A stretch of 64,000 nt of DNA from Desulfovibrio piger (GTDB taxonomy: Bacteria; Desulfobacterota; Desulfovibrionia; Desulfovibrionales; Desulfovibrionaceae), in NCBI RefSeq assembly GCF_012843875.1, contig NZ_JABAFY010000003.1:62001-126000 (forward strand), read 5' to 3'. Position 1 is the stretch's first letter, and every line of letters starts with the position of its first letter. Under the pieces are notes generated by a model, which did no database searches, was not told where the DNA came from, and was given only the letters and a program-made list of their open reading frames with translations. Shown piece after piece: positions 2,271 through 7,224 of this stretch. Position numbers and translations under genes: made by a program.

Positions 2271-2312
2271 AAAAAAAAGACGACCGGCTGCCCAGGGGGA
2301 GGAGCAGCCGGC
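2271..2312 (-). terminator. Candidate terminator of the zraP-like transcript
   Basis: On the minus strand the stem CCGGCTGC/GCAGCCGG (2284-2311) is followed after five bases by eight T residues (2278-2271). It would close a transcript that starts at the sigma-54 promoter near 3303 and carries about 370 nt of 3' untranslated RNA. Confidence 0.5.
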
Positions 2313-2588
2313 CAAAGAGGGAGGATGTTCTGATGGTTAGAGGTTATGGTGAAGGAGGAGGATGCTCTCGTGAGCCCCGGCAGGACCAAGGGGGATTGCC
2401 CTGCCGGATATGTTGTCCGCCTAAGGCGGGGAGGGACGATCTCAGGAGTAAAATCCGTCGTTCTCAGGAAGGCCCGGCCGGGGCCAGGGGAATCCCCGGC
2501 CGGGGTAGAAGTTCCAGAGGACTGCATTTTGTAGAGCGGGAGCTCCGGTTAAAGGTGCCTGTCAAAGGAGGTTGCTGTTTTCGGGAGC

Positions 2589-2630
2589 CTGGCCGGAAGG
2601 AGGAGGAGCTTCCGGCCAGATATTTCTTTC
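2589..2630 (+). terminator. Possible plus-strand terminator
   Basis: A perfect 11-bp stem (2589-2599 with 2609-2619) is followed by a T-rich tail, ATATTTCTTTCT. It could end a plus-strand RNA made from the multi-hairpin region. Confidence 0.35.
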
Positions 2631-2652
2631 TGCCGTTGGCAGGGATCAGCTC

Positions 2653-3228: not shown

Positions 3229-3302
3229 ATATATGCTCCTTTATCTCTTCTCAGAGTGGGTTATCTTTGGGCTTTGGGTCTTGCCCTTTGTGCTCTGTAT
3301 AT

Positions 3303-3318
3303 AGCAACCCGCGTGCCA
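3303..3318 (-). promoter_or_regulatory. Sigma-54 promoter of the zraP-like gene
   Basis: Minus-strand reading gives TGGCACG-CGGG-TTGCT, an exact match to the -24/-12 consensus with GG and GC ten bases apart. The start of transcription would be near 3292, leaving a leader of about 64 nt before the ATG at 3228. A ZraR-like sigma-54 activator is encoded 2.6 kb away. Confidence 0.85.
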
Positions 3319-3508
3319 AACATTATTTTTCAATATAAATCAATATATTATATTTTCATCCCGGCAAACAGCCTTCCTCCGGCTGCCCTGTGTTCCCCCC
3401 AGATGTCCAGTTTTTATGCAGCGGGCCGGCGGACCTGGTCAAAAATTATACAGCAGACAAATTTTCATACACCCCTGACGCCCGGCCCCCAAGGCCGGAG
3501 CCGGATAC

Positions 3509-3560: not shown

Positions 3561-4037
3561 TTACGGGCAGGGTTCGAGGGTCTCCTGCAGGGAATACGTA
3601 TGGATCACGTCCTGCCGGATCATGCTGTTGCAGCCCCGGCTCTTGCCGGCGCGGCGGAAACTCACGCCCACCTCGTCCAGCAGGCGGCCTTCCAGCTGCG
3701 CCAGCTGCAGGCGCAGACGGTCGCGCAGGTCCTGCAGCTCCCAGCCAAGACGGGAGAGCGTCTCGGCGGACGAGTCCTCCGCGTAGTCGAAATGGGCCAG
3801 TTCTTCCCGCTTCTGGCGAATGCGCCAGCGGGTGTCTTCGATGGCAGGACGGGCTTCTTCAAGGATGGCGCGGGCCTTGACCTGCTGTTCTTCGGGCAGG
3901 CTCTGGAGCCACTGGTCGACATTGCGGTAGCCGCGCGGCCCGTGACCGCCACCGTGATGCCCCCCGGCAGCCGCCATGAGCGGCAGCAGCAGGAGCGATG
4001 TCATGACCAGACCACTGACAACTATATTCTTCCACAT
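3561..4037 (-). CDS. Second ZraP/Spy-like periplasmic protein
   Basis: A 158-residue protein with a signal peptide (residues 1-24, ending MAAAG), a short His/Gly patch GGHHGGGHG, and a helical core with the pattern QKREELAHF typical of ZraP-family chaperones. Unlike the first paralogue its tail is not metal-rich; it ends with two cysteines about 25 residues apart (RGCNS and EPCP), which could pair in the periplasm. The ATG at 4037 is chosen because it begins the signal peptide; the frame is open upstream without secretion character. It has its own terminator and a sigma-54-like site upstream, so it is probably a second member of the same regulon. The exact ligand is unknown. Confidence 0.8.
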   Translation of the reverse strand: MWKNIVVSGLVMTSLLLLPLMAAAGGHHGGGHGPRGYRNVDQWLQSLPEEQQVKARAILEEARPAIEDTRWRIRQKREELAHFDYAEDSSAETLSRLGWELQDLRDRLRLQLAQLEGRLLDEVGVSFRRAGKSRGCNSMIRQDVIHTYSLQETLEPCP

Positions 4038-4218: not shown

Positions 4219-5859
4219 ATGAACTTTATCCGACGCTGCCTTTCCGCTGCTGCCGCCCTGCTGGATCCCCGCCGCCACCGGCTGGCCCGCGCCGCCAACC
4301 GGCCCTGCCAGACACCGGGGTCTGCCGCGTCCGGCCGGAACACCGGCGGCATGGTGGCCAATGACCAGGCCGCGCGCGAGAACGACTGCTCCCAGGCCCG
4401 TTCACAGCTGGCGCAGCAGCAGAACACCCCGCTGGGCCTGCTGCTGGGCGGGACGGCCTTCGTCCTCATCCTGCTGGTCACCCTGCTGGCCCTGGCCTCC
4501 ATCGAGCGTAACGAACGGGCCATGTCACGCCTGCTGGCCGAAAAAGGCAGCTCCCTGATCATGGCCTTCGAGAGCATGCTGCGCACCAGCATGCGCGGCG
4601 AGGCGCGCGTGCGCCTGCAGATCCTGCTCAAGGAGATGGCCAGCACCTCGGACGTGCAGTTCATCGCCGTCACCATGCCCGACGGCACCATCCTGGCCCA
4701 CAGCAACGGCAACCGCCTGGGCGAGATCCTGCGCATCAACGGCGAAGAGGCCGACGAAAAGACCATGAAGCTCCTGGCCCCCGGCAGCCAGACACGTTCC
4801 GCCATCCTCAATATGGAAGGCCAGCGCGTGTTCGTGGTCTACCGCTATTTCATGCAGCCCCCGCCGGGGCAGGAGCTGCCGCCGGGCCTGCCGCAGCCCA
4901 TCATCTTCCTGGGCCTCGACCTCTCACCGTTCGAGATCACCCGCGGCCAGGACAGGGACCACGTCTTCATGCTGGCCGGGGTGGCCATGCTGGTGGGCCT
5001 GGCCTGTCTGCTGGCCCTGTACTACGCGCAGCGCGCCCGCGAATCCCGCCGCCGCCAGCGCCGGGCCGAAGGCGAGATCCGCCGCCTGGAAGAAGAGATC
5101 CGCCGCAAGGAAAAGCTGGCTGCCGTGGGCACGCTGGCCGCCGGGGTGGCCCACGAGATCCGCAACCCGCTCAGTTCCATCAAGGGCTACGCCACCTATT
5201 TCGGCATGCGCTTCCCCGAAGGCAGCGAAGACCGCAAGGCCGCGGGCGTCATGGTGCGCGAGGTGGAACGCCTCAACCGCGTCATCAGCGAGCTCATCGG
5301 GCTCTCGCGTCCCAGTGACGTGCGGCCCGTGGCCGCCCCGCTGGAAGACAGCGTGGCCCATGTGCTGCGCCTCATCGCCCAGGATGCCGAAAAACGCGGC
5401 GTCCGGCTGGTGAACAGCCTTCCGGCCGCCCTGCCCCCGGCCCGCATGGATCCCGACAGGCTGGGGCAGGCCCTGCTCAATATCTGCCTCAACGCCCTGG
5501 ACGCCATGCCCGACGGCGGCACCCTGACCCTGGGCTGTACGGTGGAGAAGCAGCATCTTGTCCTCTCGGTCACGGATACCGGGCAGGGCATCGCGCCCGA
5601 GAACCTCAACCACATCTTCGACCCCTATTTCACCACCAAGGGGCACGGCACGGGCCTGGGACTGGCCACCGTCCACAAGATCGTGGAGGCGCTCGAAGGC
5701 GAAGTCTATGTGCAATCCCGTCAGGCCACGGCGGACACGCCCGGCCGGACCACGTTTTTCATACGCCTGCCGCAGGCCGGCAAGGCAGCGGGCCATCCGG
5801 CGGACGGCCCGGACAGGCAGGCGGGGGAGCCTGCCGACAGGCAGAAGGGGGAGGATTAG
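4219..5859 (+). CDS. zraS: ZraS-like sensor histidine kinase
   Basis: A membrane kinase of about 546 residues that senses periplasmic zinc or envelope stress and phosphorylates the adjacent regulator. A first transmembrane helix lies near residues 74-96. A periplasmic sensor domain of about 140 residues follows, then a second helix near 253-273 and a short coiled coil. The phospho-acceptor motif [15 protein letters not shown] is nearly that of E. coli ZraS. The ATPase motifs are [28 protein letters not shown] and GTGLGLA. The start is uncertain: 4219 has a weak ribosome site and coincides with the predicted transcription start, while ATG 4351 gives a 502-residue protein keeping both helices. 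It abuts the regulator gene with no gap. The C-terminal 25 residues are hydrophilic and poorly conserved. Confidence 0.88.
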
Positions 5860-7224
5860 GTGAATACCAGCATTCTCGTGGTTGACGACGACGATGCCCA
5901 CCGCGGCATGTTGCGCATGATGCTCCAGGCCTGGGGCTACAGCGTGGACGAGGCGGCCGACGGCGATCTGGCCGTGGAGGCCGTGCGCGCCAAGCCCTAC
6001 GACGTGGTGCTGACCGACGTGCGCATGGGACGCATGGACGGCATCCACGCCCTGCGGGGCATCCTGGACTACAATCCGGCCCTGCCCGTGGTGCTGATGA
6101 CGGCCTACTCCTCCGTGGAGACCGCCGTGGATGCCCTGCGCCTGGGCGCCTACGATTATCTGACCAAGCCGCTGGACTTCGACGCCCTGCGCGAGACCCT
6201 GCAACGGGCCGTGGACCACTCCCGCATGAGCGTGGAGAACCGCGAGCTGCGCCGCCAGCTCAGCGAGGCTGCTGCCGGGCCCGAGATCCTGGGCCGCAGC
6301 CCCGCCGTCAGCGCCATGCGCGAGATCATCGCCACCGTGGCGCCCACCGAGGCCACGGTGCTCATCACCGGGGAATCCGGCACCGGCAAGGAACTGGTGG
6401 CCCGCGCCGTCCACGGTGCCAGCGCCCGTGCCAACAAACCTCTGGTCACGGTCAACTGCGCCGCCCTGGCCGAGAACCTGCTGGAATCCGAACTGTTCGG
6501 CCATGAGCGCGGGGCCTTCACCGGCGCCGACCGCCGCCGCGAGGGCCGCTTTCTGCAGGCCGACGGCGGCACCCTCTTCCTGGACGAGATCGGCGAGATG
6601 CCCCTTTCGCTCCAGGCCAAGCTGCTGCGCGCCCTGCAGCAGGGCGAGGTGCAGCGCGTGGGCTCGGACTCGCCCATCACCGTGGACGTACGCGTCATCG
6701 CCGCCACCAACCGCAACCTGCGCGAAGAGGTGGAGCAGAAGCGCTTCCGCGAGGACCTGTTCTTCCGCCTCAACGTCATCAGCATCGAGGTGCCCGCCCT
6801 GCGTGAACGCAGCGAGGACATCCCCCTGCTGGCGGCCCATTTCCTGGAAAAATTCGCGGCCCGCAACCGCAAGAGCGTCAAGGGCTTCGCCCCGCAGGCC
6901 CTGGACATGCTGCGCCGCTACTCCTGGCCCGGCAACGTGCGCGAGCTCCAGAACGCCGTGGAGCGCGCCGTGATCCTCTGCACCGGCGACCTCATCACCG
7001 GCCCGGAACTGCCCGCCAGCGTCACCGGTGCCGCCGAGCAGGCCGCCCCGGTACCGGAGACCGCCGAGGCCTCCCTGGCCGGTCTGTCTCTGGAAGCTCT
7101 GGAGCGCCGCGCCATCGAGGACACCCTGCGCCAGACCGAGGACAACAAGAGCGAGGCTGCCCGCCGCCTGGGCATCACCCGCGCCACCCTGCACAACAAA
7201 TTGCGCAAGTACGGGCTGGAATAA
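5860..7224 (+). CDS. zraR: ZraR-like sigma-54-dependent response regulator
   Basis: A 454-residue NtrC-class activator. The receiver domain (1-120) has the acidic pocket VDDDD, phospho-acceptor Asp in LTDVRMG and Lys in TKPLDF. The AAA+ domain (about 140-375) has Walker A GESGTGKE, the sigma-54 contact loop GAFTGA and Walker B LFLDEIG. A Fis-type helix-turn-helix ends the protein ([17 protein letters not shown]). The whole protein resembles E. coli ZraR. It starts with GTG directly after the kinase stop codon, with GGGGAGG about 10 bases upstream, so the two are translated as a pair. Its probable targets are the sigma-54 promoters of the two ZraP-like genes. Confidence 0.93.

Follow-up and report, generated by a model that had tools for sequence, protein, structure and literature searches.

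Downstream of a zraP-type gene of Desulfovibrio piger, a common human gut sulfate reducer, lies a C-rich, multi-hairpin 3' UTR that is probably itself a regulatory RNA. The gene is situated on the minus strand of the window analysed here, a stretch of 64,000 nucleotides. The UTR lies between a sigma-54 promoter and an intrinsic terminator, is conserved in structure among relatives, and recurs there both as stand-alone copies and at loci from which the zraP coding sequence is missing. We consider it likely that the module acts as a sigma-54-driven, Hfq-free small RNA that masks Shine-Dalgarno (SD) sequences in trans, with the zraP UTR as the 3' half of a stress transcript that has two outputs. 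No description of this RNA was found in the open-access literature, and we know of no earlier small-RNA family in this genus, in which the present RNA would be the first.

Architecture of the zraP locus and its 3' UTR

The minus-strand fold of the UTR contains four strong GC-rich hairpins (2619-2589, 2505-2474, 2408-2376 and 2314-2281), the loops of which are given in order in Table 1. The first-pass annotation had described a multi-hairpin region with an SD-like or anti-SD-like motif in every loop. The four hairpins and the repetition of the motif in the linkers (AACCUCCUUUG, GCAUCCUCCUCC and ACAUCCUCCC) stand, while "every loop" is slightly overstated: two of the main loops carry CCUCC and the other two a run of four or five C, and smaller hairpins with other loops, such as P1, are also present in the UTR. 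The same annotation had assigned the minus strand to the 3' UTR of a zraP-type mRNA, which agrees with the zraP-type gene, the sigma-54 promoter and the T8 terminator, all of which are in place.

The minus-strand fold reaches -143.1 kcal/mol, compared with -119.4 ± 5.3 kcal/mol for shuffled sequences (z -4.5, 0 of 100 shuffles), and the plus strand of the same region folds more weakly (z -2.3). Along its 382 nt, the minus strand carries eight CCUCC, a motif that we take to be anti-SD, and no GGAGG; the shuffle mean is 3.2 CCUCC, and 23 of 2000 shuffles reach eight. Across both strands of the 64 kb, no other 382-nt stretch is as dense in CCUCC, the next holding five. The CCUCC sites are predicted to be mostly unpaired, with mean unpaired probabilities of 0.61-1.00 against 0.49 overall. 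In D. piger, an extra block (2619-2563 and 2505-2474) is located upstream of the conserved module and comprises a hairpin with a CCUCC loop, the AACCUCCUUUG linker and a hairpin with a CCCC loop; it resembles a degenerate second copy of the module.

Table 1. Coordinates of the features at the zraP locus (positions in the window).
Feature	Position	Strand	Basis
3' UTR RNA	2271..2652	-	8 CCUCC, no GGAGG; fold and composition
Hairpin 1, loop CUCCUCCUC	2589..2619	-	Fold; also in L001, L031 and L002
Single-stranded anti-SD linker AACCUCCUUUG	2563..2573	-	Fold, unpaired probability
Hairpin 2, loop GAUUCCCCUG	2474..2505	-	Fold
P1, small conserved hairpin CCGCC-UUA-GGCGG	2417..2429	-	Almost invariant
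P2 hairpin, loop AAUCCCCCUUG	2376..2408	-	Fold; stem covaries in relatives
Conserved unpaired core GCAUCCUCCUCC...AACCUCUAACCAUCAGAACAUCCUCCCUCU	2315..2367	-	Alignment; model R2 matches
P3 terminator hairpin, loop CUCCUCCCCCUG	2271..2314	-	U8 tail at 2278-2271
zraP-type coding sequence, 191 aa	2653..3228	-	Pfam Metal_resist
Sigma-54 promoter TGGCACGCGGGTTGCT	3303..3318	-	Pattern match; start predicted near 3292
Putative upstream activator site 1, CTGTATAATTTTTGACCAG	3435..3453	-	By-eye likeness to CTGTGTAAATTTTATACAG of related promoters
Putative upstream activator site 2, CTGCATAAAAACTGGACATC	3402..3421	-	By-eye likeness to CTGTATAAAAAACATACG of related promoters
Second Metal_resist gene	3561-4037		Beside zraP; protein family search
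Histidine kinase, ZraS-type	4219-5859	+	Protein family search
Sigma-54 response regulator, ZraR-type	5860-7224	+	Protein family search

The promoter of zraP contains the -24/-12 element TGGCAC-N5-TTGC typical of sigma-54-dependent genes, and exact matches to the 16-mer pattern number 12 across the 2.86-Mb genome, compared with three for the reversed control. The ZraSR-type pair (4219..7224) is the likely activator of the zraP transcript, and at 9 of 18 context loci the RNA is flanked by ZraSR orthologues. Many related promoters, zraP-linked and stand-alone alike, have sites similar to CTGTGTAAATTTTATACAG and CTGTATAAAAAACATACG 80-130 bp upstream; strict patterns for these sites match 23 of 42 related promoters and none of the window species' promoters, sites 1 and 2 included, so the claim of a shared activator holds only in part. 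In D. vulgaris Hildenborough, DVU3384 is presumably a zraP. There, DVU3382-3381 and DVU3384 are listed under the regulator DVU3381 as "envelope stress response" in the portion of the source available to us (PMC4641369).

Conservation, distribution and stand-alone copies

The UTR region (about 382-385 nt) is 97% identical in D. piger ATCC 29098 (L031) and 91% identical in a further genome, G006. In a DNA search of 61 genomes, its last ~100 nt were found in about a dozen other species, the upstream part having diverged. The relatives share a common anatomy: P1 (CCGCC-nnn-GGCGG), P2 with a C-run loop, the unpaired core AACCUCCUCCUUUGAACAGAACCUCUAACCAUCGGAACAUCCUCCCUC, and the terminator P3 with a C-rich loop. 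The first-pass annotation had staked its reading on hairpins and loop motifs being conserved downstream of zraP in relatives, where CCUCC or C-rich loops and linkers are indeed kept. By our own fold criteria, 34 of 45 copies have CCCC or CUCC in the P2 loop, and 36 of 45 have CCC or CUCC in that of P3; the exceptions include six zraP-linked copies from which P2 is absent, and paralogues in G025 and G029 with an AAACAA-like P3 loop.

Both stems covary beyond all slid controls. In P2 (26 sequences), 9 of 14 pairs show two-sided changes, with a score of 0.401 against 0.216 for shuffled alignments (0 of 500 as high) and at most 0.180 for slid controls; in P3 (32 sequences), two-sided changes occur in five of nine pairs (0 of 500 shuffles). 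P1 is nearly invariant and hence uninformative either way. The conserved core is longer than CCUCC (UAACCAUCGGAACA), and generic SD pairing does not account for the part beyond this motif, which may reflect specific targets or a protein site.

A covariance model of the last 100 nt, R2, was built from 32 sequences; with a cut-off of E <= 0.001 in the genus, it matches 45 of 79 genomes at 58 places and leaves 34 without a match, the sequences used to build the models matching by construction. One of the 58 places (G333:C50) looks like the ordinary terminator of another gene. In a class-wide draw at E <= 1e-4, the matching genomes (45 of 348) comprise 43 of this genus and two of genus g39, and both g39 loci show the order sigma-54 promoter, zraP, module. 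A further 40 zraP-type loci comprise six of this genus without the module and 34 of other genera. Among the latter, six carry at least three CCUCC within the 300 nt downstream of an ORF (L134, 10; L128, 9; L141, 5; L140, L151 and L152, 3 each), and the rest carry zero to two; over all 47 ORFs examined in the 40 loci, the ratio of CCUCC to GGAGG is 54:16. Judged from these sequences, a similar tail exists in some sister genera, and most distant genera lack it.

Weak matches of model R1 resemble ordinary terminators or C-rich sequence and have no sigma-54 sites, both outside the genus (L080, L082 and L083, E > 1e-5) and within it (L081, L084, L085 and L087). These rejected matches were left out before the 45 copies were counted, and L044 and L045, being identical duplicates, were removed; L086, which looked like a true divergent member, is not among the 45. 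Both L086 (G334) and L115 (G338) are minimal members, with a sigma-54 site 33-39 nt before the core and an RNA of ~115 nt.

All 45 distinct strong copies have TGGCAC-N5-[TC]TGC within 1.3 kb upstream, 43 exactly and two with one mismatch. Ten of 13 later copies have a sigma-54 site with at most one mismatch, and the remaining three (L112-L114), all zraP-linked, have no recognisable sigma-54 promoter upstream. Nineteen of the 45 are zraP 3' UTRs, and the other 26 have no zraP between the promoter and the RNA; two of these 26 contain a 96-aa frame that relatives lack. The stand-alone RNAs are 190-495 nt long (25 of 26 measured), and these 25 hold 87 CCUCC, against 25.7 expected from shuffles, and no GGAGG. 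In the L032-L035 and L004 group, the openness of the CCUCC sites does not exceed the average. Up to five copies exist per genome (G264 and G025).

Several of these loci have particular arrangements. In one of the 26, from G021 (L033 / L175), an IS1595-type transposase gene separates the stand-alone RNA from its sigma-54 promoter. L068 and L069 (G264:C1:1152009 and 1156572) have equal model scores and lie ~4.5 kb apart in opposite orientation, L068 being without upstream activator-like sites. At L179 (G344:C8), the minus strand carries eight sigma-54-type promoters along ~3 kb (~4450 to 1503), with a short RNA-like unit after each of them; three of these units are divergent relatives of ~250 nt, and most of the others are ~110 nt and end in a GC-rich terminator hairpin, forming an apparent array of sigma-54 small-RNA genes.

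At six context loci (L162-L166 and L175), the promoter and the RNA are situated beside orthologues of the window's ZraS (61-67%) and ZraR (75-80%) with no ZraP match within 12 kb; five of the six also have ZraP2. At L167, L177 and L178, ZraP is present at the equivalent place. A ZraP match at 1e-10 is missing from 14 of 38 genomes of the genus; nine of these 14 carry the RNA. A close ZraP (E <= 1e-55) occurs in 18 genus genomes, and 17 of these have the RNA. In the remaining one, G287, zraP is close (E 1.6e-66), and the 224 nt visible before the contig end contain no module. On the ZraR tree, three changes in zraP are needed (3-4 in bootstraps), of which well-supported branches force only one, and shuffled labels do as well in 253 of 500 cases. 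The loci without zraP argue most strongly for selection acting on the RNA itself.

Proposed function and alternative explanations

In the mechanism that we propose, envelope or metal stress would act through the ZraSR-type two-component system and sigma-54 to induce the zraP mRNA, the 3' UTR of which would be a base-pairing RNA. The P1, P2 and terminator hairpins would display C-rich loops, and the single-stranded linkers would offer several CCUCC blocks. The whole UTR, or a form processed by nucleases, would then block the translation of other mRNAs by pairing with their SD regions, and would do so without Hfq. Relatives have this RNA as a sigma-54-driven gene of its own, often in multiple copies, and in some of them it is all that is left where the zraP coding part is missing. 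Pairing in trans with SD sequences is suggested by a composition that is anti-SD and free of GGAGG, by the failure to detect Hfq and by the analogy with NfeR1/ar14. No Hfq match was obtained in any of the seven genomes searched, and the Hfq control gave a signal in 5 of 14 genomes. The Pfam model for CsrA has matches in five of the seven genomes searched and none in the D. piger genome analysed here or in G006, both listed as 100% complete. Since neither a CsrA nor an Hfq gene is detected in these two genomes, post-transcriptional control in them would proceed by other means. SD pairing alone does not discriminate targets. Pattern searches for the 16S 3' tail gave no match in 3 and 5 genomes, single-contig ones included, in which the rRNA may be masked.

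A purely cis-acting element, whose hairpins do no more than stabilise or terminate the zraP mRNA or mediate its autoregulation, would suit the 19 zraP 3' UTRs and the role of P3 as a terminator; it is quite unlikely in view of the 26 copies that no zraP precedes, the six sampled loci that keep the RNA beside zraSR where zraP is missing, and the long unpaired sequence among the conserved parts, which a stabiliser does not need. That unpaired core, conserved beyond CCUCC, might instead titrate or recruit an RNA-binding protein without any mRNA pairing, and as many as five copies per genome resemble dosage-driven sponges. Such a role is rather unlikely, however: Hfq was not found in the seven genomes searched, we know of no protein that binds C-rich RNA in these bacteria, and pairing fits better with the stand-alone RNAs, in which CCUCC is enriched and GGAGG absent from all 25.

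The C-rich, G-poor linkers could also be read as a Rho loading site, the region serving termination only. The intrinsic terminator follows the C-rich RNA, though, and the hairpins covary, while Rho sites are not known to have conserved structure, which makes this reading highly improbable. The plus strand was taken by the first-pass annotation as a possible CsrB-type sponge that sequesters CsrA, on the strength of GGA in its loops; these GGA motifs are accounted for as the complement of the conserved C-rich loops. A sponge of the CsrB/RsmY type needs CsrA to bind, and this protein, present in most of the genomes searched, was detected neither here nor in G006. In addition, the promoter and the terminator serve the minus strand, and the plus strand folds more weakly. 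The plus-strand RNA, rejected on CsrA absence and orientation, is therefore scarcely credible.

The SD-masking reading extends to a more tentative evolutionary proposal, namely that the RNA has outlived its mRNA: the zraP 3' UTR may have become autonomous several times, via coding loss and duplication under the same sigma-54 control, to yield a broad SD mask, a mimic of the ribosome tail that, in bacteria lacking Hfq, would damp translation under envelope stress. The loci form a natural series from mRNA tail to tail without gene to duplicated stand-alone gene, which makes the 3' UTR origin of small RNAs directly testable.

Comparison with known regulatory RNAs

No Rfam family reaches its gathering threshold in the window, and Qrr has no match there. 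Downstream of one stand-alone copy, L073 (2129-2318, plus strand) gives a sub-threshold match to psRNA2 (46.3 bits, gathering 65). Across five loci, ar14 (RF02344) scores at best 29.4 and 26.2 bits against a gathering threshold of 58.8, and sX13 (RF02232) scores 22.4 (L031) and 22.8 bits against 50. Among eleven further loci, only L134, from another genus, gave CcsR1 (RF02791; 27.7 bits, gathering 65.3) and ar14 (27.0 bits), with neither family matched at E <= 1 in the remaining ten. The Xanthomonas sRNA sX13 resembles the present RNA in its hairpins with C-rich loops and differs in promoter and context. The Qrr sRNAs of Vibrio are likewise encoded by several sigma-54-driven paralogous genes; unlike the present RNA, they need Hfq and are not 3' UTRs. 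For Oleidesulfovibrio alaskensis, the accessible text of an ncRNA prediction contains nothing that we found on zinc, sigma-54 or Shine-Dalgarno (PMC11124144).

The closest functional likeness is with ar14/NfeR1 and CcsR1-4, alphaproteobacterial RNAs with CCUCCUCCC loops, which also combine hairpins and unpaired parts bearing anti-SD motifs over variable stems, occur in multiple copies per genome and are linked to stress. According to the parts of the sources available, the three anti-SD hairpins of NfeR1/ar14 silence mRNAs redundantly by occluding the ribosome site, independently of Hfq (PMC10746234), and CcsR1-4 share a transcript with the gene of a small protein (ccaF1) and are cut from this precursor (PMC3927594, PMC10746234, PMC10253847). 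By position, the present RNA parallels the ccaF1-CcsR co-transcript, as far as the latter is described in the text at hand (PMC10253847). However, ar14 has three hairpins each with an unpaired CCUCCUCCC, whereas CCUCC or C-rich loops and linkers are found here and the nonamer is not in each hairpin; most CCUCC are in linkers, and the loops are often GCCCCCA. Furthermore, the promoter is of the sigma-54 type and not RpoH, and the partner is zraP and not DUF1127. By analogy, the RNA would work like ar14/CcsR, and by their models it is not a member.

CpxP and ZraP are related, and both CpxQ and the present RNA belong to the 3' UTR of an mRNA for a periplasmic chaperone of this type, which is stress-induced in the case of cpxP and presumably so in that of zraP. 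In Enterobacteria, CpxQ arises from the cpxP 3' UTR, which the available portions of the sources describe as exceptionally conserved and ending in the mRNA terminator (PMC9438474, PMC4817254). The present RNA is likewise a conserved 3' UTR element that shares the terminator of its mRNA. CpxQ, however, is ~60 nt long, Hfq-dependent and made by RNase E, whereas the present RNA is larger and structured, exists also as stand-alone genes, and comes from genomes among which seven of seven searched gave no Hfq match. This comparison suggests that the mRNAs of periplasmic ZraP/CpxP-type chaperones carry regulatory RNAs in two distant lineages, one with Hfq and one without.
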